The position numbers and the translations under genes were made by a program. 64,000 bases of DNA from Pelagibacteraceae bacterium (GTDB lineage Bacteria > Pseudomonadota > Alphaproteobacteria > Pelagibacterales > Pelagibacteraceae). A model generated the notes under the pieces. That model saw nothing but the letters and a program-made list of their open reading frames with translations. It did not search any database and was not told the origin of the DNA. Below are positions 1 to 51,034 of the stretch, piece after piece. Where the stretch lies: contig JALEGD010000001.1 of assembly GCA_022763425.1 (NCBI GenBank), forward strand, positions 572,572 to 636,571, in the 5' to 3' direction. Within the stretch, counting starts at the first letter, position 1. Each line of letters begins with the position of its first letter.

Positions 1-597
1 GGTCTCATAATAGGTTTTTTTGTTGCATTACCTGTAGGAGCTGCTGCTTTATTATGCATAAATCGATCAATTCAATATGGTTTAAAAGCGGGCGTATTTA
101 CTGGTTTGGGAGTTGCAACTGCAGATTTAGTTTACGGTTTTTTTGCAGTATTTGGACTTTTTGCAATTTCAGGAGAGACATTAGAAAATCAACCAGTTTT
201 AAGGTTAGCAGGAGCATTTTGCATTATGTTTATTGGTTTAAGAATGATGACCAAAGTTCCAAATACAAATTCTGATAATACCCTACATGAAACGGCTTTC
301 AAGGATGCATTAACTGGCTTTTTAGTAACAATTAGCAATCCAATGACCATAATTGCCTTTGTGGCTGCTCTTTCTTACGTTAATTATTTAATGGAAGAAA
401 TCAGTTACTTTGGATCTTTGCTTATAATTACAGGTATTTTTTTTGGCTCTTTTTTTTGGTGGTTAGCGCTTTCCTCTTTATCAATAAAATTAAAGGATAA
501 ATTAACTTCAAATTTCTTAAGAAAAATTAATTTAATTTCTGGTTCATTAGTTTTTATTTTTGGAATATTACTTGTTTTAAGTATAAAGGGTTTTTAA
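1..597 (+). CDS. LysE/RhtB-family exporter (5' end outside window)
   Basis: Frame 1 is open from the first base to the TAA at 595-597, so the gene is cut by the window edge and about 198 residues are visible. The visible protein is a chain of hydrophobic segments. Its start has the family hallmark: a glycine-rich helix with Leu-Pro-Val-Gly, then Leu-Leu-Cys-Ile-Asn-Arg-Ser, and Gly-Leu-Gly-Val-Ala-Thr-Ala-Asp further on. LysE/RhtB proteins are inner-membrane exporters of amino acids or related small molecules; the substrate here cannot be told. The stop shares one base with the ATG of rseP (taATG), suggesting co-transcription. It is one of three LysE-type genes in the window. Confidence 0.85.
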   Translation, partial: GLIIGFFVALPVGAAALLCINRSIQYGLKAGVFTGLGVATADLVYGFFAVFGLFAISGETLENQPVLRLAGAFCIMFIGLRMMTKVPNTNSDNTLHETAFKDALTGFLVTISNPMTIIAFVAALSYVNYLMEEISYFGSLLIITGIFFGSFFWWLALSSLSIKLKDKLTSNFLRKINLISGSLVFIFGILLVLSIKGF

Positions 598-1697
598 TGT
601 TACAGTATATTTTATCTTTTGTTATTTTGATCTCTGTTGTTGTATTTGTTCACGAATATGGACATTATTATTTTGCAAAGAAATATAAAGTTGGTGTCAC
701 TGATTTTTCTATAGGTTTTGGTAAAGAATTATTTGGTTTTAACGACAAAGATGGAACAAGATGGAAAATATGTGCAATTCCACTTGGTGGATATGTAAAG
801 TTTTTCGGAGATAGTAATTCAGCGTCTCAACCTGTCAATTTATCAAAAATTGATGATAAAGATCATTCCAAATTATTAACTACAAAGCCATTATATCAAA
901 GGGCAATAATTGTTTCCGCAGGTCCAATAGCTAACTTTATATTAGCTATTTTTATTTTCTCATTAATTTTTATGACTGTTGGAAAAGATATTACTGTTCC
1001 AATTATAACTGAAGTTCAACAAAATTCACCTGCTTCGAAAGCTGGATTAAAAAGTAATGATCAAATTACTTTTATTGATGATAAAAAAATTGAAAGCATT
1101 AATGATGTTGCTTTGTTCATAGCCACAAGCAAATCTGATAAAGTAAAGGTAGAGGTTTTAAGAAATCAAAGACCTTTATCTTTTATCATTGAACCTGAAA
1201 AAAAAATTACTAAAGATAATTTTGGTAATAATATTGAAAGAAAATTAATTGGAATAAAAATAGCTCCTCTTAAAGGTAAAATGGAAAGAGAAAAACTTGG
1301 TCCATCAAAAGCGATATTTTTATCTATTAAAGAAACCCATAATACAATTTCAATGACATTATCTTATTTAGGAAAAATGATTGTTGGAAAAGAAAGTGCC
1401 GATCAATTAGGAGGTCCTATTAAAATTGCACAAATTTCAGGAAAGGTAGCTGAACATGGACTGATACCTTTTTTATCGATCATGGCGTATATATCAATTA
1501 GCTTAGGCTTAATTAATTTATTTCCAATCCCCTTGTTAGATGGTGGTCATTTATTTTTTTATTTAATTGAATTTTTAAGAGGAAAACCATTAAGTGAAAA
1601 TGTTCAAATTTATTTTTATAAATTTGGAATGGCTGTTTTGTTTACTCTGATGTTTTTTGCAACTTTTAATGATCTTAAAAGTCTTGGATTGTTTTAA
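597..1697 (+). CDS. rseP: RIP zinc metalloprotease RseP (site-2 protease, M50)
   Basis: A 366-residue intramembrane protease with the zinc-binding HEYGH motif at residues 19-23 in the first membrane helix and the second motif LDGGH at 314-318 near the C-terminus. One PDZ domain lies at about residues 130-200 (E. coli RseP has two, so this is the shorter form). The family cuts membrane-bound anti-sigma factors and cleaved signal peptides within the membrane. It overlaps the preceding LysE gene by one base. In many proteobacteria rseP follows dxr/cdsA and precedes bamA; here a LysE gene precedes it and HU follows, so that order is broken. No anti-sigma factor is visible in the window. Confidence 0.93.
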   Translation: MLQYILSFVILISVVVFVHEYGHYYFAKKYKVGVTDFSIGFGKELFGFNDKDGTRWKICAIPLGGYVKFFGDSNSASQPVNLSKIDDKDHSKLLTTKPLYQRAIIVSAGPIANFILAIFIFSLIFMTVGKDITVPIITEVQQNSPASKAGLKSNDQITFIDDKKIESINDVALFIATSKSDKVKVEVLRNQRPLSFIIEPEKKITKDNFGNNIERKLIGIKIAPLKGKMEREKLGPSKAIFLSIKETHNTISMTLSYLGKMIVGKESADQLGGPIKIAQISGKVAEHGLIPFLSIMAYISISLGLINLFPIPLLDGGHLFFYLIEFLRGKPLSENVQIYFYKFGMAVLFTLMFFATFNDLKSLGLF

Positions 1698-1772
1698 AAA
1701 GTCCTTTTTTACATACTATTAGTTGAAATCTGTGGTTAAAAAGTCCCCCAAAATGATTTTTCGTTGATTTTA

Positions 1773-1802
1773 TTGAGTTTTTGAAAGAATGTTAATTATT
1801 AA
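1773..1802 (+). promoter_or_regulatory. candidate sigma70-type promoter of the HU gene
   Basis: TTGAGT at 1773-1778 and TATTAA at 1797-1802, 18 bp apart, place a start about 12 bases before the HU ATG. The HU leader then carries an AAAGGA ribosome site at 1810-1815. Assigned by eye. Confidence 0.4.
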
Positions 1803-1820
1803 CGATTCGAAAGGACCAAA

Positions 1821-2096
1821 ATGAACAAAAAACAGCTTGTTGCTAAAATTTCTAGCACACTAAACTTAAGTAAAGCTGATGCCGAGAGAACATTTGATAG
1901 CATAACTAATATTATTTTAGATGCGCTTAAAGATGATGACTCGGTAAAAATTGCAGGTTTTGGTACTTACAAAGTAGCAAAAAGAAAAGCAAGACAAGGA
2001 AGAAACCCAAGAACTGGGGAAACTATCCAAATCTCAGCTTCGCAAAAAGTGAAGTTTTTACCTGCAAAAGCTTTAAAAGACATGTTCAATAAATAG
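1821..2096 (+). CDS. hup: HU-family DNA-binding protein
   Basis: A 91-residue histone-like protein. The N-terminal helices (MNKKQLVAKI...) are followed by the beta-saddle and the DNA-clamping arm around residues 50-75, containing the diagnostic GRNPRTGE and a Pro at the arm tip. Proteins of this type form dimers that bend DNA and organise the nucleoid. The gene is monocistronic: it has its own ribosome site (AAAGGA, five bases before ATG), a candidate promoter upstream and a strong terminator immediately after it. HU and IHF subunits are similar, but the length and arm sequence fit HU better. It is the only nucleoid or DNA-binding regulator recognised in the window. Confidence 0.95.
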   Translation: MNKKQLVAKISSTLNLSKADAERTFDSITNIILDALKDDDSVKIAGFGTYKVAKRKARQGRNPRTGETIQISASQKVKFLPAKALKDMFNK

Positions 2097-2102
2097 TCTT
2101 TC

Positions 2103-2142
2103 AAAACAGCCTTATTTTTCAATAAAATAAGGCTGTTTTAAA
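2103..2142 (+). terminator. strong intrinsic terminator after HU
   Basis: Perfect 16-bp stem: 2103-2118 pairs with 2124-2139 (core ACAGCCTTATT/AATAAGGCTGT), with a five-base loop. The A-rich left arm and T-rich right end make it usable on both strands. It isolates hup from the following gene. Confidence 0.85.
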
Positions 2143-2175
2143 CCTTATTTTTTTCACACAATTAAATAAATCACA

Positions 2176-2207
2176 TTTTTATTGATTGAATTATTGATCA
2201 ATAAAAA
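2176..2207. repeat. AT-rich inverted repeat upstream of the CADD-like gene
   Basis: TTTTTATTGAT at 2176-2186 is perfectly inverted as ATCAATAAAAA at 2197-2207. Inside it lies a second perfect palindrome, TTATTGATCAATAA, at 2191-2204, so ATTGAT occurs twice directly and once inverted. It lies 35 bases before the start codon and could be an operator or an RNA hairpin. No regulator can be named. Confidence 0.4.
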
Positions 2208-2241
2208 TAAAGTTAGCTTAATAAATTATATAGGAGTCGAT

Positions 2242-2913
2242 ATGTTTTCAAAAAAATTAGCAGATAAATTAGATGAATATCATCTATTAAAACATCCATT
2301 TTACCAGGCGTGGAATGAAGGAAAATTAAATAGAGAAATTATAAAAGATTATGCTGAGCAGTATTATCAGCACGTAAAAGCTTTCCCAAGATATATCAGT
2401 GCAACGCATTCTTTATGTGAAGATATTTCAAAAAGAAAAGTGCTTTTGGAAAATTTACAAGAAGAAGAAGATAGAGACAATGATCATCCTAAACTTTGGA
2501 AACAGTTTGCAATGGCGTTGGGAGCTGATGATAAGGAAATTGAAACTAAAGATCAAGATAGTTTCACAAAAGATATGATCGATAATTTTTTCAAACAAGC
2601 AAGATCTAGTTATGCCGAAGGACTTGGTTCTTTTTATACCTATGAAAGACAAGTTCCAGAAGTTGCAGATGTAAAGATTACTGGATTAAAACAACACTAT
2701 GGTGTCGATACCAAAGAAGGACTGCAGTTCTTTGAAGTTCATAAAGATGCAGATGTAATCCATAGAGCTGAATGCGAAAAACTTTTAGACGAACTTACTC
2801 CTGAAGAACAAGTAAAAGCAGAAAAAGCAGCGCTAACAACTGCTAAATTTATGTGGAACTTTTTATCTGGAGTAGCTTTAAAGCACAAATTACCTTTGGA
2901 GTGTGCAGCCTAA
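2242..2913 (+). CDS. CADD/PqqC-like di-iron family protein (candidate p-aminobenzoate synthase)
   Basis: The ATG at 2242 is chosen over an upstream TTG because of the AGGAG ribosome site at 2232-2236; the protein is 223 residues. It is an all-helical haem-oxygenase-fold protein of the PqqC/TenA/CADD type. Candidate di-iron ligands are E75, H82, H167, D171 and H174 (HxxxDxxH). From memory, these match the ligands of Chlamydia CADD (E81, H88, H174, D178, H181). Residues at the positions of the CADD tyrosines and lysine that serve in self-sacrificing p-aminobenzoate synthesis also seem present: Y21, Y134, K145. No other PQQ gene is nearby, so a folate-precursor role is more likely than PQQ synthesis. 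It precedes serC with a 53-base gap carrying a hairpin. Family is solid; activity is inferred. Confidence 0.8.
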   Translation: MFSKKLADKLDEYHLLKHPFYQAWNEGKLNREIIKDYAEQYYQHVKAFPRYISATHSLCEDISKRKVLLENLQEEEDRDNDHPKLWKQFAMALGADDKEIETKDQDSFTKDMIDNFFKQARSSYAEGLGSFYTYERQVPEVADVKITGLKQHYGVDTKEGLQFFEVHKDADVIHRAECEKLLDELTPEEQVKAEKAALTTAKFMWNFLSGVALKHKLPLECAA

Positions 2914-2930
2914 ATAATTAATTCTTAAAT

Positions 2931-2955
2931 GCGCAGCCATATAAAACGGCTGCGC
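2931..2955 (+). promoter_or_regulatory. hairpin in the serC leader
   Basis: An 8-bp GC-rich stem, GCGCAGCC (2931-2938) with GGCTGCGC (2948-2955), encloses a nine-base loop and ends 11 bases before the serC ATG. There is no Shine-Dalgarno sequence between. The end of the upstream gene repeats the motif (TGCAGCC, 2904-2910), so the right arm has an alternative partner. A structured leader before serC is known in alphaproteobacteria (the 'serC' RNA motif), but I cannot confirm that this is a member. Confidence 0.5.
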
Positions 2956-2966
2956 TTAAAATCTAA

Positions 2967-4115
2967 ATGTCTAAGCCAACAACAAAGCCTAATAGTCCAT
3001 ATTTTTCTTCAGGTCCTTGTAAAAAAAGACCAGGATGGAACACATCTAAGTTTGACTTGGAAACACTGGGCAGATCACATAGGGCAAAACCTGCCAAAGA
3101 AAAATTATTACAAGTTATTGAACAGTCAAAAAAAATTTTAAACTTACCGGCTGATTATAAAGTTGGAATATTAGCTGGCTCAGACACTGGAGCTGTTGAG
3201 GCTGCAATGTGGAATTTGCTTGGACCAAATGGTGCTGAAGTTTTAGCTTGGGAAAGCTTTGGATTGGACTGGGCAAAAACAATTACTGACCAATTAAAAA
3301 TTGAAGGAAGCAATGTTCACAAAGCTGATTATGGTAAATTACCAGATTTATCTAAAGTAGATTTTAATAAAGATGTTCTTTTTAATTGGAATGGAACAAC
3401 CTCAGGAGTTAGAGTTCCTGATGCAAATTGGATACCAGATAATAGAAAAGGTTTAGTTTTATGTGATGCAACATCCGCTGTATTTGCCATGGAAATGAAT
3501 TTTGCGAAGCTTGATGTTATCACATGGTCGTGGCAAAAAGTATTAGGCGGTGAAGGTGCCCATGGAATGATTGCATTATCTCCAAAAGCAATTGAGCGTT
3601 TAGAGACATATAAACCTAAATGGCCATTACCAAAAATATATAGATTAACATCAAAAGGAAAGTTGGCTGACGGAGTTTTTAAAGGAGCCACAATCAATAC
3701 TCCATCCATGTTTTGTGCAGAAGATGCTCTTGATGCATTAGCTTGGGTTGAGTCTATAGGTGGCGCAAAAGGTGCGATTGATAGATCAAATAAAAATCTT
3801 GATGCAGTCAAATATTGGGTTGAACAAAGTGATTGGGCAGATTTTTTATGTGAGGATAAATCAAATTTATCTTCAACCAGCATTTGTCTGAAAGTTAAAG
3901 ACAGTAACTTTTTAAAGTTAAGTGAAGAAGAGCAATCCAATAAAATTTTGGAAATCAACAACCTTTTGGATAAAGAAAAAGTAGCATACGACATTAATTC
4001 ATATCGAACAGCACCTCCTGGTTTTAGAATCTGGGGTGGATCAACTGTGGAAACTTCTGATATTAAAAATTTATTGCCTTGGTTAGATTGGGCTTATGCT
4101 GTAGTAAGCAACTAA
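2967..4115 (+). CDS. serC: phosphoserine aminotransferase SerC
   Basis: A 382-residue class V PLP aminotransferase. It begins with the family's substrate-binding Pro-Tyr-Phe-Ser-Ser-Gly-Pro-Cys-Lys motif, has GRSHR at 35-39, and the Schiff-base lysine is K191 in Ser-Trp-Gln-Lys-Val-Leu-Gly-Gly-Glu. It converts 3-phosphohydroxypyruvate and glutamate to phosphoserine and 2-oxoglutarate, the second step of serine synthesis. It is followed without a gap by serA and serB, forming a complete pathway operon. A hairpin stands just before the start codon, which lacks an obvious ribosome site. The sequence resembles the alphaproteobacterial/Methanosarcina-type SerC rather than the E. coli type. Confidence 0.95.
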   Translation: MSKPTTKPNSPYFSSGPCKKRPGWNTSKFDLETLGRSHRAKPAKEKLLQVIEQSKKILNLPADYKVGILAGSDTGAVEAAMWNLLGPNGAEVLAWESFGLDWAKTITDQLKIEGSNVHKADYGKLPDLSKVDFNKDVLFNWNGTTSGVRVPDANWIPDNRKGLVLCDATSAVFAMEMNFAKLDVITWSWQKVLGGEGAHGMIALSPKAIERLETYKPKWPLPKIYRLTSKGKLADGVFKGATINTPSMFCAEDALDALAWVESIGGAKGAIDRSNKNLDAVKYWVEQSDWADFLCEDKSNLSSTSICLKVKDSNFLKLSEEEQSNKILEINNLLDKEKVAYDINSYRTAPPGFRIWGGSTVETSDIKNLLPWLDWAYAVVSN

Positions 4116-5696
4116 ATGTATAAAGTTTTAATCGCAGATAAGCTTAGTGAGGAAGCGGTAAACATCTTTAAAGAAAATGGAATTGAAGCAGTTGTCAAAA
4201 CTGGTCTAAGTGAAGAAGAATTAATTAAAGAATTAGAAACCTGTGATGGTCTAGTCGTCAGATCTGCAACAAAGCCTAATAAAAATATTATTGAAAAATC
4301 CAAAAGACTTAAAGTGATTGGAAGAGCTGGTATTGGAGTTGATAATATTGATCTTGAGGCCGCTACCAATAATGGAAAAGTTGTAATGAATACTCCTTTT
4401 GGAAATTCTATAACAACAGCAGAACATGCAATTACGTTAATTTTATCTACTGCAAGACAAATACCTTTTGCAGATAAAACTACTCATGAAGGTAAATGGG
4501 AAAAATCTTCAATCAAAGGAGTAGAGGTAACTGGAAAAACTCTAGGAGTAATAGGTTGCGGTAATATTGGTTCAATTGTTGCCAATAGAGCTTTAGGGTT
4601 ACATTTTAAAGTTATTGTATTTGATCCGTTTTTACAAGACGAGCGAGCAAAGGATATGGGAGTTGAAAAAGTTGAATTAAACGATTTATTTAAAAGATCT
4701 GACTTTATAACTTTGCATACTCCTTTAACTGAGAAGACAAAAAATATTATAAATAAAGATTCGTTTAAACTAATGAAAAAAGGTATTCGAATTGTAAATT
4801 GCGCAAGGGGTGGATTGATTGATGAAGAAGCTCTGAAAGAAAATCTGGAAAGTGGTCATGTTGCAAGTGCTGCATTAGATGTTTTTGTAAATGAGCCTCC
4901 AAAAGATAGTCCTTTACTTGGAACCAAAAATTTAATTATGACACCTCACTTAGGGGCATCCACAACTGAAGCACAAGAAAAAGTTGCTTTGCAAGTTGCA
5001 GAACAAATTTCAGATTATTTAAAAACTGGCGCTATTACAAATGCCGTGAATACTTTTTCATTAACAGCTAAAGAATATAATTCCGTACAGCCCTACCTGA
5101 AACTTTCTGAGCAATTAGGTGGATTTGCAGGACAATTAACAGAGAATGCTATCAAAAGAATTGAAATAGAGTTTGAAGGCCAGGTATCACAAATAAATAC
5201 TCAGCCATTAATGCAAACTATGATTTGCTCACTGTTAAAATCAAATTTTGATGGTGTGAATGTTATTAATTCAATTTTAGTTGCAAAAAATAAATCTATT
5301 CAGATATCAGAGACCAAGCATGAAAAAGCGTGTGAATATCAATCATGCGTAACTCTTACTATCGAGACAGATAAACAAACAAGATCAGTTTCGGGAACTT
5401 TATTTGGTGGCAAGCCAAGAATAGTAAATATTAAAGGTATCAAAATTGAAGCTGAACTTGCTAAACATAATCTTTATATTAGCAATGAAGATAAGCCGGG
5501 TTTTATAAGCAATTTATCTAAAATATTATCAGATAATAATATTAATATTGCAACATTTAATCTTGGAAGAAAAGATAGTGGCGGAGAAGCCATTGCCCTT
5601 ATATCTACAGACAATCCGATAGAAGAAAAAGTCTTAGATAGTATAAAAAAATTACCACTAGTTATTCAAGCAAAAACACTCACTTTTAATGAATAA
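4116..5696 (+). CDS. serA: D-3-phosphoglycerate dehydrogenase SerA
   Basis: A 526-residue long-form enzyme. It has an N-terminal substrate domain, an NAD-binding fold with Gly-Val-Ile-Gly-Cys-Gly-Asn-Ile-Gly at 144-152, the catalytic Arg (NCARGG), Glu and His (MTPHLG) of D-2-hydroxyacid dehydrogenases, then an intervening domain and a C-terminal ACT domain from about 455. It oxidises 3-phosphoglycerate to 3-phosphohydroxypyruvate, the committed step of serine synthesis; in other bacteria the ACT domain binds serine for feedback control. The ATG directly abuts the serC stop and the 3' end overlaps serB by eight bases, so the three genes are almost certainly co-transcribed. Confidence 0.96.
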   Translation: MYKVLIADKLSEEAVNIFKENGIEAVVKTGLSEEELIKELETCDGLVVRSATKPNKNIIEKSKRLKVIGRAGIGVDNIDLEAATNNGKVVMNTPFGNSITTAEHAITLILSTARQIPFADKTTHEGKWEKSSIKGVEVTGKTLGVIGCGNIGSIVANRALGLHFKVIVFDPFLQDERAKDMGVEKVELNDLFKRSDFITLHTPLTEKTKNIINKDSFKLMKKGIRIVNCARGGLIDEEALKENLESGHVASAALDVFVNEPPKDSPLLGTKNLIMTPHLGASTTEAQEKVALQVAEQISDYLKTGAITNAVNTFSLTAKEYNSVQPYLKLSEQLGGFAGQLTENAIKRIEIEFEGQVSQINTQPLMQTMICSLLKSNFDGVNVINSILVAKNKSIQISETKHEKACEYQSCVTLTIETDKQTRSVSGTLFGGKPRIVNIKGIKIEAELAKHNLYISNEDKPGFISNLSKILSDNNINIATFNLGRKDSGGEAIALISTDNPIEEKVLDSIKKLPLVIQAKTLTFNE

Positions 5697-6570
5697 TAAA
5701 TTTTTATCATTAGTTGCAAATGAAAAATTTGTAGCTGATGAATTAATAAATTTTTGTAAAGAAAGTTTTTCTTTTAAAATATTAAGCACCAGAATTCTTT
5801 CAAATCATGCATTAGAGATAGAAATTGAAAATTTTGATAAAAATAAAATTCAAGACTTAAATAAAATCTTCAATCAGAAACAAATTGATTTTTGTATTAG
5901 AGATAAAAATTTCAAAGATTTTAAAGTTTTACTTTGCGATATGGACGCAACCATGATTGCAAATGAAACATTAGACGATTTAGTAAAAATTACTGGCTCA
6001 GATTTTAATGTTGATGAGACAAGTAAATTAGCAATGGAAGGTAAAATTGATCTTAGAACTACACTAAAAAATAGGGTGGAAATTTTAAAAGGTCAGCCAA
6101 AAAGTTTAATAGATGAGGTATTAAAAGGTATTAAATTTAATCCTGGCGGCAAAACGCTAGTGAGTACACTTAATAATTTAGGTTTTGAAAGCAATCTAAT
6201 AACCGGTGGCTTTAAACCAATCTCAACATATGTTGGAGAAAAACTAGGTTTTAAAAATATTGTTAGCAATGAGTTTAACTTTGATGAAAAAGATTGTTTT
6301 ACAGGTGATTATATTCCAATAACGGGTGAGAAAAATTCAAAATATAAATACATGGAAACAATCTCTTTAGATAAAAATATTTCATTTAAAGAAATGGTTT
6401 CAGTTGGAGACGGTTCAAATGACTTGCAAATGCTGAAACATTCCGGGTTAGGTATTGGTTATCATGCTCATCAGATCATTAAGGATAATATAAATCTTCA
6501 AATTAAATTTACAGATTTAAAATCAGTTTTATTTTACCTTGGTATACAAGAAAGTCAGTTTATTGATTAA
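5689..6570 (+). CDS. serB: phosphoserine phosphatase SerB
   Basis: A 293-residue HAD-superfamily phosphatase. A poorly conserved N-terminal part of about 75 residues precedes the catalytic domain, which has the nucleophile motif Asp-Met-Asp-Ala-Thr (D84, D86), the conserved Ser/Thr region (Leu-Ile-Thr-Gly-Gly-Phe) and the C-terminal Gly-Asp-Gly-Ser-Asn-Asp. It releases serine from O-phosphoserine. It overlaps serA by eight bases and completes the serC-serA-serB operon. Its stop overlaps by four bases the stop of the convergent peroxiredoxin gene, with no terminator between. Confidence 0.95.
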   Translation: MNNKFLSLVANEKFVADELINFCKESFSFKILSTRILSNHALEIEIENFDKNKIQDLNKIFNQKQIDFCIRDKNFKDFKVLLCDMDATMIANETLDDLVKITGSDFNVDETSKLAMEGKIDLRTTLKNRVEILKGQPKSLIDEVLKGIKFNPGGKTLVSTLNNLGFESNLITGGFKPISTYVGEKLGFKNIVSNEFNFDEKDCFTGDYIPITGEKNSKYKYMETISLDKNISFKEMVSVGDGSNDLQMLKHSGLGIGYHAHQIIKDNINLQIKFTDLKSVLFYLGIQESQFID

Positions 6571-7031
6571 TTAATTGATTTAATAAAATCTAAAACAGTT
6601 TTGACGTGATCTTTTACTTTAACATTGTTCCAAATTTTTATTACCTTTTGATTTTTTCCAATAAGAACGGTTGTTCTTTTTATACCCATAAATTTTTTTC
6701 CATACATTGATTTTTCACCCCAGGCACCAAGTTCTTTTATAAGTTTAATATTTTCATCAGAAAGTAATTCAAATGGAAATTTAAAATTTGATTTAAATTT
6801 TAAATGACTTTCAATGCTATCTTTTGAAACCCCAATAATCTCGGTATTTAATTTTTTAAATTTTTTATAACCTTTTGCAAACTCAATAGACTCGGTAGTG
6901 CAACCAGGTGTATTATCTTTTGGATAAACATAAATAATTAAATTTTGTTTTAAATCTTTTTTTAAGTGGAAAATCTTTCCATTTGTTGATGGTAATTTAA
7001 AGTCTTTTAATAATTTATTTTCTTTAATCAT
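6567..7031 (-). CDS. bcp: thioredoxin-dependent peroxiredoxin (BCP/PrxQ type)
   Basis: A 154-residue AhpC/TSA-fold protein with the active-site context Pro-Lys-Asp-Asn-Thr-Pro-Gly-Cys-Thr-Thr-Glu, peroxidatic cysteine C44. The family reduces hydrogen peroxide and organic peroxides using thioredoxin. The resolving cysteine found five residues later in E. coli BCP is replaced here by Ile49, so this is a one-cysteine variant or uses another resolving residue. The gene converges on serB with a 4-bp overlap and diverges from the rhodanese gene across only 28 bases. Confidence 0.92.
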   Translation of the reverse strand: MIKENKLLKDFKLPSTNGKIFHLKKDLKQNLIIYVYPKDNTPGCTTESIEFAKGYKKFKKLNTEIIGVSKDSIESHLKFKSNFKFPFELLSDENIKLIKELGAWGEKSMYGKKFMGIKRTTVLIGKNQKVIKIWNNVKVKDHVKTVLDFIKSIN

Positions 7032-7059
7032 AATAATTTAAAATTTATAATGTCTTATT

Positions 7060-7452
7060 ATGAAATTAAAAACATCTAAAGAGCTTGTAGATGAAGCTAT
7101 GGATAAAATTAAAACTTTATCTCCTTTAGAATTTAAAGAATTACAAAAACAAAAACCAGATTTAGTATTGATTGATATTAGAGATATTAGGGAGCTTAAG
7201 AAAACGGGAAAAATCAAAGGTGCAAAACACATGCCACGCGGCATGCTTGAATTTTGGCTAGATCCAGAGAGTCCATATTATAAAAAAGATATCACACCAG
7301 ATAAGACAAAAGTTTTATACTGTGCTTCAAACTGGAGAAGTGCTTTAGCTGCATTAACAATTCAAGAAATGGGTTTTAATAATGTTTCTCATATTAAAGG
7401 TGGGTTTCAGGCTATGGTAGATCAGGGTTTTGAAACCGAAATAATTGATTAA
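7060..7452 (+). CDS. single-domain rhodanese-like protein
   Basis: A 130-residue protein with one rhodanese domain: Ile-Asp-Ile-Arg-Asp at about 38-42, the His-Met-Pro-Arg-Gly segment, and a catalytic loop Tyr-Cys-Ala-Ser-Asn-Trp-Arg-Ser with active cysteine C88. Such proteins transfer sulfane sulfur, for example in thiosulfate metabolism or sulfur relay; the physiological acceptor is unknown. It is divergent from bcp and converges with the isomerase-like gene with one base between stops. A TATAAT at 7046-7051 lies eight bases before the ATG, so the mRNA may have almost no leader. Confidence 0.88.
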   Translation: MKLKTSKELVDEAMDKIKTLSPLEFKELQKQKPDLVLIDIRDIRELKKTGKIKGAKHMPRGMLEFWLDPESPYYKKDITPDKTKVLYCASNWRSALAALTIQEMGFNNVSHIKGGFQAMVDQGFETEIID

Positions 7453-7453
7453 T

Positions 7454-8038
7454 TTATTTTTTTGCCTCTCGAAAAACAAACTCTAATCTGTCTTGACCAA
7501 AAAACATTTTAGATCCAACGAAGAAAGTAGGCGCACCAAAAACACCTTTTTTAAAAGCATTGTTGGTTTTTGTTTTTAAATCATCTTTAATTTTTTGATC
7601 ACTTAATTTTTCAATAAAACTTTTTGGATTAATATCCATGTTTTTAATAAAACGTTCTAAAATTTTACCATCATTTAAGTTAAGCGAGTCTACCCATGCA
7701 GCTTTGTAAAATTGATCAACATAATTAATAAGAAATCCTTCTTTTTCAGCGACTAAAGCTCCTCTCATTATATTTACTGTTTTTAATGGAAAGTATCTAT
7801 TAAACTGAAACTTAACCTTAAACCAATCTGCACAAATTTTTAAATCTTTGATCATATGTTTGGCTCTTGATGGATTTAATCCAGGCGCTGTAACATTCGC
7901 TAATTGATGAATTCCACCAAGGAGTATTGGCATATAGTTAACTTTAATTTTATTTTCTTTTTCAAAACGTTTTATTTGTTCATGAGCAAGGTAGGAGTAG
8001 GGACTACTAATATCAAAATAAAAATCAATTTTTTTCAT
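7454..8038 (-). CDS. DsbA-family 2-hydroxychromene-2-carboxylate isomerase-like protein
   Basis: A 194-residue thioredoxin-fold protein of the HCCA isomerase/kappa-GST type. It opens with Phe-Tyr-Phe-Asp-Ile-Ser-Ser-Pro-Tyr-Ser-Tyr, the conserved glutathione-site serine region, and ends with Gly-Val-Phe-Gly-Ala-Pro-Thr-Phe-Phe-Val, the cis-Pro loop, followed by the typical Gly-Gln-Asp-Arg-Leu. The founding enzyme isomerises a naphthalene-degradation intermediate with glutathione. No aromatic degradation genes are nearby, so the real role is probably a general glutathione-dependent isomerase or transferase. Its ATG overlaps the stop of the upstream membrane-protein gene by one base. Confidence 0.88.
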   Translation of the reverse strand: MKKIDFYFDISSPYSYLAHEQIKRFEKENKIKVNYMPILLGGIHQLANVTAPGLNPSRAKHMIKDLKICADWFKVKFQFNRYFPLKTVNIMRGALVAEKEGFLINYVDQFYKAAWVDSLNLNDGKILERFIKNMDINPKSFIEKLSDQKIKDDLKTKTNNAFKKGVFGAPTFFVGSKMFFGQDRLEFVFREAKK

Positions 8039-8544
8039 TATTCATGCAGCTTTAATTTTTGAGCAATTAATAATCTCAAAAATAAATATAAAAATAAACC
8101 TACAGGCCCACTAAAATAAGTTAAAATTAGTGGGAATATTGTAATGTACTTATGGATATTTAATCTTATCGCATCATTTGCGATCCAGACACCGAGGAAT
8201 AAACTTAATGTTAAAAAATGTATCCAAAAAATTAAAACAAACAGTGTATTATCCATTAAAGACATTAACTCATCTAACCCTAAATAAAGCCTAAAGTTAT
8301 TTAAGACATCGAGAGGATCTTTTTTTATTAAATTCTCAAAAGCACCAGAGGGATAAATTTGCTCAAAAGCTAAATAGCCATATGTGAGCGCTAAAACAAA
8401 AGGGATAAATAGATTGTTAACTAGACCCTGAGTGATCTTTGAACTTGGAAAGAAAATAATTAACAACCAAAGAGGAATTACACCAATATTTGCAAATTGG
8501 TATATCATTTCTAAGGTAAAAAAATCTTTGATCGTTTCTAACAT
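8038..8544 (-). CDS. ABA4-like integral membrane protein (DUF4281)
   Basis: A 168-residue protein with four predicted membrane helices. The central region (Phe-Trp-Ile-His, then Leu-Phe-Leu-Gly-Val-Trp-Ile-Ala-Asn-Asp-Ala) and the C-terminal Ser-Gly-Pro-Val-Gly-Leu-Phe-Leu-Tyr resemble the ABA4 family. In plants ABA4 is needed for neoxanthin formation, and relatives are found in bacteria. The bacterial role is not established; a link to carotenoid or retinal chemistry is only a possibility, since no carotenoid gene lies in this window. It is co-oriented and overlapping with the isomerase-like gene, so the two probably share an mRNA. It is divergent from recX across 22 bases. Confidence 0.72.
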   Translation of the reverse strand: MLETIKDFFTLEMIYQFANIGVIPLWLLIIFFPSSKITQGLVNNLFIPFVLALTYGYLAFEQIYPSGAFENLIKKDPLDVLNNFRLYLGLDELMSLMDNTLFVLIFWIHFLTLSLFLGVWIANDAIRLNIHKYITIFPLILTYFSGPVGLFLYLFLRLLIAQKLKLHE

Positions 8545-8566
8545 ATGGTAACGTCCTAGTTTATAT

Positions 8567-9127
8567 ATGAATCAATCTAAATCAATCCATCAAAACTTAG
8601 ATACAGTAGAAGAAATAAAGGAATTGGCACTAAAGTATTTGGATAAATATCAACCTTCAAAAAAAAGTTTGCAGATTTATTTATTCAGAAAAGCAATTGA
8701 TGCCCAAAGTAATACAATTGAAAAAAGTGAGATTATAAAGAAAATTGATATTGTTTTAGATGATTTAGAAGAAAAAGGTATTTTAAATGATACTCTTTAC
8801 TCTGAAATTAAATCAAAGAATTTTTTAAAACGTGGTTACTCTCTAAATAAAATAAAACAACATTTGTCTCAAAAGGGTATTGGAAGCGAACTTTTAAAGC
8901 AAACTATTGAGAAAATTCAAAATGATCATACAAATCCTGATTTTTATTCTGCAATAAGAATATGTAAAAAGAGAAGACTAGGACCGTACCGTCCAGATGC
9001 TAATAAAGAAATTTTTTATAAAAAAGATATGGGTGTTTTAGCAAGATCTGGTTTTAGTTATGATTTATCAAAAGAAGTTTTGGCTTTAGACAAAAAGCAA
9101 CTCAAAATTTATGAAAAAAAGCTTTAG
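8567..9127 (+). CDS. recX: RecX-family regulatory protein
   Basis: A 186-residue, charged, mainly helical protein. The middle contains the RecX pattern: Leu-Glu-Glu-Lys-Gly-Ile-Leu-Asn-Asp, a short helix, then Arg-Gly-Tyr-Ser-Leu-Asn-Lys-Ile-Lys and Leu-Ser-Gln-Lys-Gly-Ile-Gly. RecX binds RecA filaments and limits their extension. recA is not in the window, which is common in alphaproteobacteria. The identification rests on the tandem three-helix pattern and length; the divergent neighbour is unrelated. The basic C-terminal third is less conserved. Confidence 0.82.
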   Translation: MNQSKSIHQNLDTVEEIKELALKYLDKYQPSKKSLQIYLFRKAIDAQSNTIEKSEIIKKIDIVLDDLEEKGILNDTLYSEIKSKNFLKRGYSLNKIKQHLSQKGIGSELLKQTIEKIQNDHTNPDFYSAIRICKKRRLGPYRPDANKEIFYKKDMGVLARSGFSYDLSKEVLALDKKQLKIYEKKL

Positions 9128-9128
9128 T

Positions 9129-9266
9129 TTATTTTTTACCTTTATTTCGCTTTTCTTCCTCAACTAATTCATTTATTTTTTTTTGCATCGTTTGTCTTAC
9201 AGCACTAAATACAATGATACCAAAAATTGATACACTTACTATTATAATTAGAATAGTCTTGATCAT
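9129..9266 (-). CDS. small single-pass membrane protein, 45 residues
   Basis: This small reading frame begins at an ATG whose first base is the last base of the cysQ stop (taATG on the minus strand), strong positional support for translation. The product has one hydrophobic helix at about residues 4-22 (many Ile and Val) followed by a charged, Lys/Glu-rich tail probably in the cytoplasm. No family is recognised. It is the third gene of a small minus-strand operon: DUF3553 protein, CysQ-like phosphatase, then this protein. It ends just after the convergent recX stop. Confidence 0.6.
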   Translation of the reverse strand: MIKTILIIIVSVSIFGIIVFSAVRQTMQKKINELVEEEKRNKGKK

Positions 9267-10039
9267 TATATTCTTGAATTCCTTCTGATTAATAATGAAG
9301 GGTTTTTAAAACCCCTTTTACCATATAGTATTTTTTTATTTTGATGAGTTCTCACAATTGCTCCAGCACCTTCTGCAATAGCATGGCCAGCGGCATAGTC
9401 CCATTCTCTTGCTCTTGCTCTGGCAGTATAAAAGTCAAATTCTGAACTTGCAATCATGCAAAATTTTAGAGAACTTCTCATGCTCACAAAATGATTAATT
9501 TTATATTTTTTTAAAATTCGTCTTATAATTTCAGATGGTTTTGATGAGTTTGTTAATGCAATTTTGTCTCTTTTTTTTATCTTTGAACAATCTAATTTAA
9601 TTTTTTTCTTTTTATCAAAAATTTCATAGGCTTTATTTTTTCCAAACGAATAAAACAATCTTTTCTTTTTTGGTGCATAAATAATACCAGCTACTGGTTT
9701 TTGGTTTACAATTAAGCCTGCATTAATTGTATATTCTGATCCACCTTTTATATATGAACTTGTCCCATCGATTGGGTCAACTAACCAAAAAGTTTGTCTT
9801 TTTTTAATTTTTGTATTTTTAATAGTTTCTTCAGAAACAACTTCTATTTCAGGTGATATTTTTTTTAAAAACTTTTGTAATATTTTATCAACCTCTAAAT
9901 CGCCATTGGAAACAGGCGTTCCATCATCTTTGATAAATATTTTTAGCTTTTTTGCACATTGTATTGATTTAGATCCCGCCTTATAAAAAATTGGAATAAG
10001 TTTTTTAATTAGTTTTTGTGGATCAATTTTGTTCTTCAT
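9266..10039 (-). CDS. cysQ: CysQ-like 3'(2'),5'-bisphosphate nucleotidase (inositol monophosphatase family)
   Basis: A 257-residue Mg-dependent phosphatase of the IMPase fold with Ser-Glu-Glu at 69-71, Trp-Leu-Val-Asp-Pro-Ile-Asp-Gly-Thr ending at residue 93, and Glu-Trp-Asp-Tyr-Ala-Ala-Gly-His-Ala in the C-terminal third. The Ser-Ser-Leu-Lys-Phe-Cys segment and the Glu-Trp-Asp context favour CysQ, which removes the 3'-phosphate from adenosine bisphosphate, over inositol phosphatase. No sulfate assimilation gene is close. The start overlaps the upstream DUF3553 gene by 17 bp, and its stop overlaps the downstream 45-residue gene by one base. Confidence 0.85.
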   Translation of the reverse strand: MKNKIDPQKLIKKLIPIFYKAGSKSIQCAKKLKIFIKDDGTPVSNGDLEVDKILQKFLKKISPEIEVVSEETIKNTKIKKRQTFWLVDPIDGTSSYIKGGSEYTINAGLIVNQKPVAGIIYAPKKKRLFYSFGKNKAYEIFDKKKKIKLDCSKIKKRDKIALTNSSKPSEIIRRILKKYKINHFVSMRSSLKFCMIASSEFDFYTARARAREWDYAAGHAIAEGAGAIVRTHQNKKILYGKRGFKNPSLLIRRNSRI

Positions 10040-10202
10040 ATTTTTCCAAAGTAATTTCAGAGGTATTTATAGTTTTTTTTCCCGCATTTTGAAAATTTAC
10101 TGTTACTTTATTATCTACAATTGACTGTACTTGACCGATACCCCAATCTTTGTGAGATGGGTGGATTACAAAGTCACCAGGATCATAGTCATATACATGC
10201 AT
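10023..10202 (-). CDS. DUF3553-family small protein, 59 residues
   Basis: A 59-residue reading frame starting at the ATG at 10202. The sequence has Pro-Gly-Asp-Phe-Val-Ile-His-Pro, then Asp-Trp-Gly-Ile-Gly-Gln-Val, then Val-Thr-Val-Asn-Phe, Ala-Gly-Lys-Lys and Ile-Asn-Thr, the pattern of the alphaproteobacterial DUF3553 family: a small beta-barrel resembling the CarD/UvrD-tail type, of unknown function. It leads the minus-strand operon with cysQ (17-bp overlap) and is divergent from mnmA across 33 bases. Recognition of the family is from memory of its pattern. Confidence 0.8.
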   Translation of the reverse strand: MHVYDYDPGDFVIHPSHKDWGIGQVQSIVDNKVTVNFQNAGKKTINTSEITLEKYEEQN

Positions 10203-10235
10203 TTTAAAATATGATTATCGTGATATACCGATGTT

Positions 10236-11369
10236 ATGAGTTTAGCAATCACAGATATTACAGAGAAGAATATACTTGGTTTTGATAAAGATAAATCCAA
10301 AACAAAAGTCGTTGTTGCAATGTCAGGAGGCGTTGATTCTTCTGTAGTTGCAGCTCTTTTAAAAAAAGAAGGCTATGAAGTAATTGGAATTACACTTCAG
10401 TTATTTGATTACGGAAAAATTGGAAAAACAAAAGGGACATGTTGTGCTGGGAAAGATATTTATGATGCGAAAAAAGTTTGTGATCAACTTGAAATTAAGC
10501 ATGAAGTTTTCAATTATGAGTCAATATTTAAAGAAGAGGTCATAGAAAAATTTGCAGATAGTTACATAAAAGGAGAAACTCCAATTCCTTGTGTCGATTG
10601 CAACCAAACTGTAAAATTTAGAGATCTTTTTAAATCGGCAAAAAATTTAGATGCTGATGCATTGGCAACGGGACATTATGTTAAGAGAATATTTAATCAT
10701 AGCGCCATGATGTATAGACCAGAGGATTTAAATCGCGATCAAAGCTACTTTTTATTTAATACTACCCAAGAACAACTTGATTATCTTAGATTTCCCTTAG
10801 CTTCATTGTCAAAAACTAAAACTAGAGACATTGCCAGAGATTTAAAATTACAAGTTGCAAATAAACCAGATAGTCAGGATATTTGTTTTGTCCCAAATGG
10901 TAATTATAAGACAATTGTAGAAAAGCTAAGACCAGAGTCATTTGTTGAAGGTGAAATTGTAGACACTAAGGGAAAAGTATTAGGCAAACATCATGGGATC
11001 GCAAATTTTACAATAGGTCAAAGAAAAGGAATAAGAGTATCATCAACTGATCCTTTCTTTGTAATAAGGATTGATCCTAAGAAAAATCAGGTAGTTATAG
11101 GATCACGAGAAGAACTTTTGGTTCAAACTATTCATTTAAAAGACATAAATTATCTTTGCGATAAAGATCAGTTAAATGGTAATTTTCTTGTTAAGGTAAG
11201 ATCTACAGGAAATCTATTAGAGTGTAATGTGTATGATAATGGACATAAAGTAACGCTTTCAAGCGGTGAGACAGGAGTTTCGCCTGGTCAAGCATGTGTA
11301 TTTTATAAGCAGGATGAGTTTGGAGCGAGAGTGTATGGAGGTGGATGGATAGATAGAACGGAGAAATAA
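10236..11369 (+). CDS. mnmA: tRNA-specific 2-thiouridylase MnmA
   Basis: A 377-residue PP-loop enzyme: Met-Ser-Gly-Gly-Val-Asp-Ser-Ser near residues 29-36, Pro-Cys-Val-Asp-Cys-Asn with one of the two catalytic cysteines, the second in Asp-Ile-Cys-Phe-Val, and a C-terminal beta-barrel. It adenylates and thiolates uridine 34 of tRNA Glu, Gln and Lys, with sulfur supplied by a persulfide relay. An N-terminal extension of roughly 20 residues precedes the usual start. The gene is probably its own unit: divergent from the DUF3553 operon and converging on a tiny basic-protein gene with no space between stops. Confidence 0.95.
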   Translation: MSLAITDITEKNILGFDKDKSKTKVVVAMSGGVDSSVVAALLKKEGYEVIGITLQLFDYGKIGKTKGTCCAGKDIYDAKKVCDQLEIKHEVFNYESIFKEEVIEKFADSYIKGETPIPCVDCNQTVKFRDLFKSAKNLDADALATGHYVKRIFNHSAMMYRPEDLNRDQSYFLFNTTQEQLDYLRFPLASLSKTKTRDIARDLKLQVANKPDSQDICFVPNGNYKTIVEKLRPESFVEGEIVDTKGKVLGKHHGIANFTIGQRKGIRVSSTDPFFVIRIDPKKNQVVIGSREELLVQTIHLKDINYLCDKDQLNGNFLVKVRSTGNLLECNVYDNGHKVTLSSGETGVSPGQACVFYKQDEFGARVYGGGWIDRTEK

Positions 11370-11453
11370 TTATTTCTTTTTATTTTTTCTTCTATTTCTT
11401 CTTCTCTTAGATCCGATTTTTCTTCGACCTCGATGTTTTTTTGGATATCCCAT
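11370..11453 (-). CDS. 27-residue arginine/lysine-rich protein
   Basis: A minus-strand frame of 27 codons starting ATG-GGA-TAT-CCA. Two thirds of the residues are Arg or Lys; the core reads His-Arg-Gly-Arg-Arg-Lys-Ile-Gly-Ser-Lys. Length and composition recall small ribosomal proteins such as bTHX, but the similarity is too weak to name it. Its stop falls immediately after the convergent mnmA stop, so it exactly fills the gap. No ribosome site is evident. In AT-rich DNA a poly-basic frame can arise by chance, since AAA and AGA are A-rich codons, so the call is moderate. Confidence 0.45.
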   Translation of the reverse strand: MGYPKKHRGRRKIGSKRRRNRRKNKKK

Positions 11454-11518
11454 TTTATGTTTTTTATTAAATTAAAAGTTGTATTTAGCAGATTTTTATT
11501 TTATTTACTAGATCGAAT

Positions 11519-11713
11519 ATGAGTTCAACTTTTAAAAATAACAAACCTTTAGATTTCACTAAAAATGAAGAGAACTCAAAAAATAATATAGATTACTTTA
11601 ATTTAAAAGAAGATAGAGCCAAAGAGGACAAGCAAGAAAAAGTCCAAAGTGTTTTATTCGTATCTGCTGCAGCCGTTTTTATCGTAGCATTTGTTGCTAT
11701 AATTTATTCTTAA
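11519..11713 (+). CDS. small tail-anchored membrane protein, 64 residues, unknown function
   Basis: A hydrophilic, Lys/Asn/Glu-rich stretch of about 43 residues is followed by one hydrophobic helix (about residues 44-62) at the very C-terminus, as expected for an inner-membrane protein with a cytoplasmic N-terminal domain. No family is recognised. It is followed after 18 bases by a LysE transporter on the same strand, so it may be co-expressed with it. A weak -10-like sequence (TACTAG, 11506-11511) lies seven bases before the start, and there is no ribosome site. Confidence 0.6.
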   Translation: MSSTFKNNKPLDFTKNEENSKNNIDYFNLKEDRAKEDKQEKVQSVLFVSAAAVFIVAFVAIIYS

Positions 11714-11731
11714 AATAAAAATAACTTTTTT

Positions 11732-12337
11732 ATGATTACTACCGAACTTTTTATCGGGTTGATTACTTTCTATTTTGTGATGTTTATGACTCCAGGTCCA
11801 AATAACATTATGTTAACCATATCTGGCATAAAATTTGGCTTTAAAAAAACTATTCCTCACATGATTGGTATTCCACTGGGTCATGTTACACAAATTGCAT
11901 TAGTAGCATGTGGACTTGGAAAATTTTTTCAAATGTACCCTGATATTCAAAATATTTTGAAAATCTTAGGTTGTATTTATTTATTTTATCTTGCTTATAA
12001 AATGTTCGGCTTATTAAATGTAAAAACTAATGAAGATAAGTTATCTGGTCGACCAATGAAAATGTATGAATCTATTTTATTCCAATACTTAAACCCTAAG
12101 GCATGGGTAGCTTCGGTGACAGCAGTGACTGTTTTTTTTCCAAATCAAGAAAATTTTATAGTTGGGGTACTATTTTTAACATTAAGCGCTCCTTTATTAG
12201 AAGTTATCGCGGTTACAACATGGGCAGGATTTGGTGCAACGATAAGAGTGTTTATATCCAATAATAAAATAAAAAAATTTATTGAAATTTTAATGGCTAT
12301 TTTATTAATATTAACTTCAGCATTTATTTTAATATGA
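11732..12337 (+). CDS. LysE/RhtB-family exporter
   Basis: A 201-residue inner-membrane protein with five or six hydrophobic helices and the family signature Met-Thr-Pro-Gly-Pro-Asn-Asn at 19-25. Further marks are the Asn-Pro-Lys-Ala region near residue 120 and the hydrophobic C-terminal helix. Family members export basic, branched or sulfur amino acids, homoserine or related compounds; the substrate is not predictable here. It overlaps yjbQ by four bases (ATGA), so the two are translationally linked. Confidence 0.9.
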   Translation: MITTELFIGLITFYFVMFMTPGPNNIMLTISGIKFGFKKTIPHMIGIPLGHVTQIALVACGLGKFFQMYPDIQNILKILGCIYLFYLAYKMFGLLNVKTNEDKLSGRPMKMYESILFQYLNPKAWVASVTAVTVFFPNQENFIVGVLFLTLSAPLLEVIAVTTWAGFGATIRVFISNNKIKKFIEILMAILLILTSAFILI

Positions 12338-49093: not shown

Positions 49094-51034
49094 ATGCAAG
49101 ATAACATCGCTCTGGCTATCAAGAATGCTTTGGAAGAAAACAAGGACAAAATTGTAGAAGAATCTAGTAAAATCAATGCTGATTTGAAGAGGCCAGACCT
49201 ATTTAGCCTTTCAAACGACACTGAATTATTTCAAAACGAAGAAGGAATCACCATTAAGATCGATAGATCACGTGACGCTAATCTAACTGATTTTGGTATG
49301 GCAACTTTAACAGATAGATATTTAAGTGAAAACGAGTCTTATCAAGATTTGTTCGCAAGGGTTGCTGCAACTTATGCTGATGACAACCTTCATGCACAAA
49401 GACTCTATAATTATATTTCTAAACTATGGTTCATGCCAGCAACACCTGTGCTTTCAAACGCAGGTACATCAAGAGGTTTGCCTATTTCGTGTTTTTTAAA
49501 TGAAGCGGCAGACTCATTAGATGGAATTGTAAATTTGTGGAGCGAGAATGTTTGGCTTGCTGCAAAAGGTGGTGGAATTGGAAGCTACTGGGGTAACCTT
49601 AGAGCTATTGGAGAAAAAGTTGGAAGAGTTGGAAAAACTTCAGGAATTATTCCGTTTATCAAAGTAATGGACTCTTTAACACTTGCAATTAGCCAGGGTT
49701 CTTTAAGAAGAGGTTCAGCAGCATGCTATCTTCCGATTGATCATCCTGAGATAGAAGAATTTATTGAAATGAGAAGACCAACCGGTGGAGATCCGAATAG
49801 AAGAGCTTTAAATTTGCATCACGGTGTACTTGTGACAGATGCGTTTATGAGAGCTGTTGAAACTGATGCTGACTGGCCTTTAAAGAGTCCATATGACGGT
49901 ACAGTTCAATCAACAATTAAAGCAAGAAATTTATGGATTAGATTATTAACTGCAAGAGTTGAGACAGGCGAGCCGTACATTGTTTTCATTGATACCGTTA
50001 ATAGAATGATACCTCAGCATCATAAACTTGCTGGTCTTACTGTAAAGACATCAAATTTATGCAGTGAGATAACTCTTCCAACTGGAATTGACAAGTACGG
50101 AAAAGATAGAACAGCGGTATGTTGTTTGTCATCTTTAAATTTAGAAAATTATGACGAATGGAAAGATGAGCCTGGGTTCATTGAAGATATAATGAGAATG
50201 TTAGATAACGTTTTATCTGATTTTATTAATCGTGCGCCTGAATCATTCAAAGACGCAAAATATTCTGCAATGAGAGAAAGGAGTGTCGGACTTGGAGTTA
50301 TGGGATTCCATTCTTACATGCAAAGACACATGATACCACTCGAGTCAGTTATGGCTAAAGTTTGGAATAAAAAAATGTTTCAGTTTATTGACAAAGAAGT
50401 AAACGCTGCTTCAAAAAAATTAGCTGAAGAAAGAGGACCATGTCCTGATGCCGCTGAGTATGGAATTAATGAAAGATTTTCTAACAAAACCGCAATTGCA
50501 CCAACAGCATCTATTTCAATTATTTGCGGAGGAGCATCGCCAGGAATTGAGCCGGTAGCAGCAAACAGTTATACGCACAAAACTTTATCTGGTTCTTTTA
50601 ATGTCAGAAACAAATATTTGAAAAAAATCTTACAAAAGTACAATCAAGATACAAATGAAGTTTGGTCTTCAATTACAACAAACCAAGGTTCAGTTGAACA
50701 CTTAGATTTTTTATCTCAAGATGAAAAAGACGTATTTAAAACTGCTTTTGAGATTGACCAAAGATGGTTAATTGATCATTCAGCAGATAGAACGCCTTAC
50801 ATATCGCAGGCTCAATCACTTAATGTATTTATACCCGCTGATATTCATAAAAAGGACCTTCACCAGATTCATTATCAAGCTTGGAAAAAAGGGTTAAAAA
50901 GCCTTTATTATTGTAGATCTAAATCAATCCAAAGAGCTGAAGTTGTGAATACAAGTTTTGCAAAAACTAAAAAGCAAAAAAATCAAGAAAACCAACAAAC
51001 AAATGATTACGAGGAGTGTTTATCATGTCAGTAG
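49094..51034 (+). CDS. nrdA: class I ribonucleotide reductase, alpha subunit
   Basis: 646 residues. The catalytic set includes Cys in Ile-Ser-Cys-Phe-Leu, the Asn-x-Cys-x-Glu motif Ser-Asn-Leu-Cys-Ser-Glu-Ile (thiyl-radical cysteine), and a C-terminal Glu-Cys-Leu-Ser-Cys-Gln redox pair at the tail. It reduces ribonucleoside diphosphates to deoxy forms in complex with NrdB. At this length there is no room for a full N-terminal ATP-cone of about 90 residues, so the usual dATP overall-activity control may be absent. An NrdR-like box upstream suggests transcriptional control. It overlaps nrdB by ten bases. Confidence 0.95.
   Translation: MQDNIALAIKNALEENKDKIVEESSKINADLKRPDLFSLSNDTELFQNEEGITIKIDRSRDANLTDFGMATLTDRYLSENESYQDLFARVAATYADDNLHAQRLYNYISKLWFMPATPVLSNAGTSRGLPISCFLNEAADSLDGIVNLWSENVWLAAKGGGIGSYWGNLRAIGEKVGRVGKTSGIIPFIKVMDSLTLAISQGSLRRGSAACYLPIDHPEIEEFIEMRRPTGGDPNRRALNLHHGVLVTDAFMRAVETDADWPLKSPYDGTVQSTIKARNLWIRLLTARVETGEPYIVFIDTVNRMIPQHHKLAGLTVKTSNLCSEITLPTGIDKYGKDRTAVCCLSSLNLENYDEWKDEPGFIEDIMRMLDNVLSDFINRAPESFKDAKYSAMRERSVGLGVMGFHSYMQRHMIPLESVMAKVWNKKMFQFIDKEVNAASKKLAEERGPCPDAAEYGINERFSNKTAIAPTASISIICGGASPGIEPVAANSYTHKTLSGSFNVRNKYLKKILQKYNQDTNEVWSSITTNQGSVEHLDFLSQDEKDVFKTAFEIDQRWLIDHSADRTPYISQAQSLNVFIPADIHKKDLHQIHYQAWKKGLKSLYYCRSKSIQRAEVVNTSFAKTKKQKNQENQQTNDYEECLSCQ

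Follow-up and report, generated by a model that had tools for sequence, protein, structure and literature searches.

A CADD-type, self-sacrificing p-aminobenzoate synthase as the probable sole pABA route of a Pelagibacteraceae bacterium

The window analyzed here is a stretch of 64,000 nucleotides from the genome of a Pelagibacteraceae bacterium, which is available as one closed contig of 1,211,322 bases. It harbors an open reading frame for a 223 aa protein that starts with ATG at position 2242, is preceded by a GGAG ribosome-binding site and ends with a stop codon at 2911-2913. The gene and its surroundings comprise the following features:

597..2096, plus strand: rseP-like protease and HU protein, upstream neighbours, conserved context in the clade of the window
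2103..2139, plus strand: perfect 16-bp inverted repeat in the HU-CADD gap, terminator-like (-19.4 kcal/mol, z -7.9; direct folding)
2242..2913, plus strand: putative CADD-type self-sacrificing p-aminobenzoate synthase (pabS/CADD), 223 aa (TIGR04305, PDB 1rcw, Foldseek)
2931..2955, plus strand: 8-bp G+C-rich hairpin in the CADD-serC gap (-16.4 kcal/mol, z -4.5; direct folding)
2967..6570, plus strand: serC, serA and serB (serine synthesis), downstream neighbours, conserved context in the clade of the window
8567..11369, both strands: block of recX (plus), cysQ (minus) and mnmA (plus), which in genome G009 and its relatives leads to pabB-pabA-pabC (gene order)

A simple terminator scan returned no terminator on the plus strand after HU or CADD, whereas direct folding gave strong hairpins on both sides of CADD, which suggests that CADD is transcribed separately from its neighbours. 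No riboswitch or other known RNA was found near the gene in window positions 1-12000. The placement of CADD between rseP-HU and serC-serA was shared by at least 14 loci of the clade of the window, Candidatus Fonsibacter among them. This clade carries the full serine cluster serC-serA-serB, and no SerC match was found in the seven Pelagibacter-type genomes searched.

In an NCBIfam profile search the protein matched TIGR04305 (fol_rel_CADD, CADD family putative folate metabolism protein) with 328.6 bits (1.5e-98), the curated cut-off of this model being 200 bits. By sequence, the nearest solved structures were CT610/CADD of Chlamydia trachomatis (1rcw, 9e-45) and two 4-aminobenzoate synthases, 8va9 and 9pj4; E values for the three ranged from 1e-43 to 1e-44. 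Judged by these scores, the likeness is far beyond chance, and by its sequence the protein is a member of the already known CADD/PabS family. An AlphaFold2 model, for which an alignment of SAR11 sequences served as input, reached a mean pLDDT of 89.5. It is a heme-oxygenase-like helical bundle closest to CADD: the best Foldseek matches were the CADD structures 8va9/1rcw (TM 0.90, rmsd 1.5 Å), while PqqC, UndA and TenA have the same fold and followed well behind. The comparison with CADD 1RCW by alignment and structural model, which the first-pass annotation had proposed as a check, thus confirmed the positions of the tyrosines and the lysine. Identity as the thiaminase II TenA was rejected (TIGR04306, 17.8 bits, cut-off 130). 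Since the fold is common to PqqC, UndA and TenA, and weak scores were obtained with the PqqC and BesC models, the protein might be conceived as a different dimetal enzyme of the heme-oxygenase-like type, resembling PqqC, UndA or BesC, that acts on an unrelated substrate in a cell importing pABA or folate. We consider this very improbable, as the PqqC model (TIGR02111) gave 45.2 bits against a cut-off of 240 and the BesC model 30 bits against 500, and both identities were rejected.

The residues with a proposed role in catalysis were located by alignment with Chlamydia CADD and with NePabS, the enzyme of Nitrosomonas europaea (NE1434), for which roles have been described (PMC11965152). All lie on the plus strand:

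2302..2304, plus strand: codon of Y21, predicted sacrificed tyrosine (CADD Y27, NePabS Y25; alignments, invariance, roles from PMC11965152)
2350..2364, plus strand: codons Y37 to Y41 (NePabS Y41, essential; Y45, probable radical relay; alignments and PMC11965152)
2464..2487, plus strand: metal ligands E75 and H82 (alignments, conservation)
2641..2646, plus strand: Y134, metal-selectivity position (CADD Y141, NePabS F148), and ligand E135 (alignments and PMC11965152)
2674..2676, plus strand: codon of K145, predicted amino-group donor (CADD K152, NePabS K159; alignments and PMC11965152)
2728..2763, plus strand: F163, second metal-selectivity position (CADD Y170, NePabS F177), and ligands H167, D171 and H174 (alignments and PMC11965152)

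The dimetal site of this family consists of six ligands, three histidines and three carboxylates (PMC11965152), and E75, H82, E135, H167, D171 and H174 were assigned to it in the window protein. The set E75/H82/H167/D171/H174 had initially been described as complete; these five ligands are present, but the sixth, E135, had been missed. It had also been stated that Y21, Y134 and K145 fall on the modified residues of CADD at a nearly constant offset of 6-7. The alignments reproduced this offset, and Y21 and K145 are the counterparts of the sacrificed pair, whereas Y134 corresponds to CADD Y141, an aromatic residue near the metals. Furthermore, Y37 is equivalent to NePabS Y41, which is essential, and Y41 and W86 are equivalent to NePabS Y45 and W99, a probable radical relay (PMC11965152).

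Conservation was surveyed in 110 SAR11 loci, four CADDs from other proteobacteria and four proteins below the TIGR04305 cut-off (L107-L110); the CADD contig scan yielded SAR11 loci only, among the matches listed. Y21, Y37, Y41, W86, K145 and the six ligands were invariant in the 110 SAR11 loci and the four other CADDs, and a loss of the tyrosines in orthologues, named at the outset as evidence that would speak against the reading, was not seen in this set. L107-L110 (genomes G551, G435, G624 and G583; about 97 bits on TIGR04305) kept all six metal ligands and lost Y21, Y37, Y41, W86 and K145, which separates the conservation of a pABA synthase from that of a mere dimetal fold. These proteins carry Ser/Trp/His at the Y21/Y37/Y41 positions and Gln or Thr at the K145 position, and from their sequences this sub-family is probably a different dimetal oxidase that is easily mis-annotated as CADD. 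The invariance of the sacrificial residues in the CADDs is a further argument against an enzyme with an unrelated substrate. Many CADDs of genus g5 (L010, L012, L026, L030) have a one-residue insertion directly after Y21, for instance YQIYW versus YQAW.

By analogy with the Chlamydia and Nitrosomonas enzymes (mechanism steps: PMC11965152; review PMC13108848), the reduced metal pair would activate O2, and the oxidising equivalent would reach Y21 over a path of about 14 Å along aromatic residues. The bond between C-alpha and C-beta of Y21 would then break, leaving a glycine in the protein, and the ring fragment would be oxidised to a carboxylate with both oxygens derived from O2. K145 would supply the amine nitrogen and be left as aminoadipate. 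Each CADD chain would thereby make at most one pABA, and for the window protein we infer one pABA per chain from its own side chains. NePabS complements a pabABC deletion, but its in vitro yield is less than 0.1 pABA per chain, and a missing activator has been proposed (PMC11965152). This leaves some room for a pABA synthase with multiple turnovers in vivo, in which a small molecule or partner provides the ring or the amine, or repair restores the spent protein. Such a scheme appears unlikely, as both enzymes studied were found to carry the tyrosine-to-glycine and lysine-to-aminoadipate changes, supplying chorismate, tyrosine or p-hydroxybenzoate gave no improvement (PMC11965152), and Y21 and K145 are strictly invariant in our survey. 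As a rough estimate, 10-50 µM folate at a cell volume near 0.04 fL amounts to some 240-1200 molecules per generation, which would require between a few hundred and a thousand copies of CADD, or perhaps 0.2-1% of the proteome. By this rough estimate a tiny, slow cell can bear the protein cost, and a single CADD gene of 0.67 kb takes the place of about 2.4 kb of pabBAC.

The two metal-near positions are Tyr/Tyr in CADD, a Mn/Fe enzyme, and Phe/Phe in NePabS, an Fe/Fe enzyme; the single NePabS variant F148Y is cambialistic, and CADD variants gave somewhat different results (PMC11965152). The partner of Y134, equivalent to CADD Y170, is F163 in the window protein, as in Nitrosomonas. The combination Tyr134/Phe163 was found in all SAR11 CADDs examined and in three from other alphaproteobacteria (alignment). 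It is the state of the F148Y variant, and flexible use of Fe/Fe or Mn/Fe is therefore predicted: by this analogy, which carries the result of a NePabS point mutant over to a protein of about 40% identity, the window CADD would accept both metal pairs about equally. A class I ribonucleotide reductase with a large and a metal-radical small subunit was recognized by eye from the open reading frames at window positions 49094-52053; its metal subclass may be worth comparing with this prediction.

The host genome was searched for other genes of pABA and folate synthesis. With the Chorismate_bind profile, pabB was absent from the 1.21-Mb genome: the sole match was TrpE, which scored over its own cut-off and lies in a trpE-trpG-trpD block. 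Each of the two Aminotran_4 proteins passed the cut-off of a transaminase model, one as the branched-chain enzyme IlvE and the other as a D-amino-acid transaminase, and no protein of the genome passed a pabC cut-off. Intact pabABC, which the first-pass annotation had named as grounds for abandoning the idea, is therefore not what this genome holds. FolP, the consumer of pABA, and FolK were both found over cut-off, and no AbgT-type importer of p-aminobenzoyl-glutamate was found in the genome, a further point against imported pABA or folate. The cell thus apparently makes folate de novo without another visible source of pABA, and CADD stands in for pabABC, which this folP-bearing genome lacks. 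One might suppose that TrpE/TrpG and one of the class-IV aminotransferases make pABA promiscuously and that CADD is an accessory: the host TrpE also scores on PabB models, albeit below cut-off, and PMC8105722 describes a bifunctional aminodeoxychorismate lyase/D-amino-acid transaminase in another bacterium. This is hardly credible, since TrpE passes its own cut-off and sits within a trpEGD block, and the proposal does not account for the presence of CADD precisely where pabBAC is lacking.

This pattern was apparent across the SAR11 order, where a strong CADD match was obtained in 43 of 297 genomes. Among the 150 genomes of the order that were at least 90% complete, all 24 with CADD had only one TrpE-type enzyme, while 110 of the 126 without CADD had at least two such enzymes or one that scored as PabB (Fisher p 1.6e-17, a statistic that ignores relatedness). 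No CADD-positive genome of the order, of any quality, carried two Chorismate_bind-type enzymes. The genome counts overstate independence, because the CADD-positive genera may go back to just one or two switches in evolution. PabB was not evident in 16 of the 126 good CADD-negative genomes. Assembly gaps are the probable cause, and the number is in part a maximum, since sister-family PabB can receive TrpE-like scores. In a sample of the phylum the TIGR04305 cut-off was passed in 5 of 398 genomes, that of the window included. The four CADD-positive genomes outside the order belong to four other families; two had no Chorismate_bind protein (G633, G665) and two had only TrpE (G398, G670), whereas most CADD-negative genomes of this small outside-order set carry two Chorismate_bind proteins. 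They are further lineages with exclusion, though few.

Gene order provided a further view. In G009 (1,308,759 bp) recX, cysQ and mnmA are followed by genes for a PLP enzyme and an MFS transporter, and then by pabB, pabA, a pabC-like aminotransferase, HIT, aprM, aprB and aprA. The best families of the three pab proteins were PabB, TrpG/PabA and class-IV aminotransferase, with PabB and PabC below the equivalog cut-offs. MFS-pabB-pabA-pabC-HIT was found in all seven Pelagibacter-type genomes, and the apr genes as well in the three for which longer stretches were fetched. The pabB-pabA-pabC operon of these genomes is compact, with a divergent PabB of 387 aa (L095:5747-8197 in G009; L094 and L096). 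In 72 of 86 CADD loci among the matches listed, a set in which a few contigs are counted twice, the MFS gene of this slot lies directly next to CADD, and the PLP enzyme precedes MFS in nearly all of these MFS-adjacent loci. The apr genes lay downstream of CADD within the fetched stretch in 47 loci among the matches listed, and pabB was not found within the stretches fetched at MFS-CADD loci. In the window, no pab genes follow the recX-cysQ-mnmA block. Many g5 loci also encode a small nucleotidyltransferase-like protein (PTAQMLGRWQPWHAGHQKLFEE...) adjacent to CADD and to the apr genes, for example at L139:4688-5068. The pabB-pabA-pabC proteins are unrelated to CADD, start from chorismate and are catalytic, but they lead to the same product and occupy the same slot as CADD in sister genomes. 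CADD and pabBAC at one MFS/apr slot in different SAR11 genera thus replace each other in place, and this exchange is the strongest new evidence for CADD as a substitute for pabABC. Together with the exclusion, it is also difficult to reconcile with a dimetal enzyme of unrelated function.

The initial interpretation as a CADD-like pABA synthase is thus supported by the lack of pabB and of a recognised pabC, the invariance of Y21 and K145, the exclusion of PabB and the slot swap. With a probability of roughly 0.87, the product of the window gene is a heme-oxygenase-like dimetal enzyme of the CADD/PabS type, which serves as the only pABA route of the cell and replaces pabABC.

In the TrpE tree the genera with pabBAC (g2) were placed apart from the clade of the window (g1, g3, g4) and from the clade whose CADD occupies the pab slot (g5, g6); a single CADD clade was not rejected by this tree (p-AU 0.129). 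In the CADD tree the outgroup branches were too few and too long to trace the deeper origin of SAR11 CADD. Pelagibacter-type PabB was separate from sister-family PabB, which groups with other alphaproteobacterial PabBs, in a weak tree with long branches. From this separation, a return of Pelagibacter from CADD to a newly acquired pabBAC is possible, as are two independent swaps. Tentatively, and with less than even odds, pABA synthesis in Pelagibacteraceae could be pictured as a swappable cassette, either a catalytic three-gene route or a single-turnover one-gene route: the ancestor would already have dropped the alphaproteobacterial PabB for CADD, the Pelagibacter lineage would later have regained a compact, divergent pabBAC at the CADD site of its sister clade, and the SAR11 CADDs with Y134/F163 would be naturally metal-flexible.

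Of its two studied relatives, Chlamydia CADD (CT610; 1rcw, 8va9) shares with the window protein the family, the fold (TM 0.90), the six ligands, the Tyr/Lys positions and the tyrosine at 141/134. The window protein differs in having F163 instead of Y170 (36% identity over the aligned structure), and its host is free-living, its gene lies outside a folate cluster and no apoptosis role is known for it; binding to death-domain proteins of a host, as described for the chlamydial protein, would not be expected in a free-living bacterium. NePabS/9pj4 shares all catalytic residues, the phenylalanine at 177/163, a free-living host and a gene outside the folate cluster; 9pj4 is 40% identical and contains a 9-residue insertion that is missing from the window CADD. 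Unlike NePabS, the window protein has Y134 at the position of F148 and is predicted to be cambialistic rather than Fe/Fe.

To our knowledge, self-sacrificing pABA synthesis has been characterised biochemically in only two bacteria, C. trachomatis and N. europaea. SAR11 is an abundant free-living group of the ocean that includes the freshwater Fonsibacter, and its members are not obligate parasites. No link between SAR11 and CADD/PabS was found in the literature searched, a coverage outside which most subscription literature and preprints lie. Three elements are new: much of SAR11 is predicted to obtain its pABA through CADD alone, CADD and pabABC are exchanged at one slot, and the Y134/F163 pair is uniform and intermediate, with a predicted metal flexibility that is open to direct assay. 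Sister genomes that carry either pabBAC or CADD in the same slot offer a clean natural experiment on the reasons for which a cell would spend one protein per molecule of a vitamin precursor.
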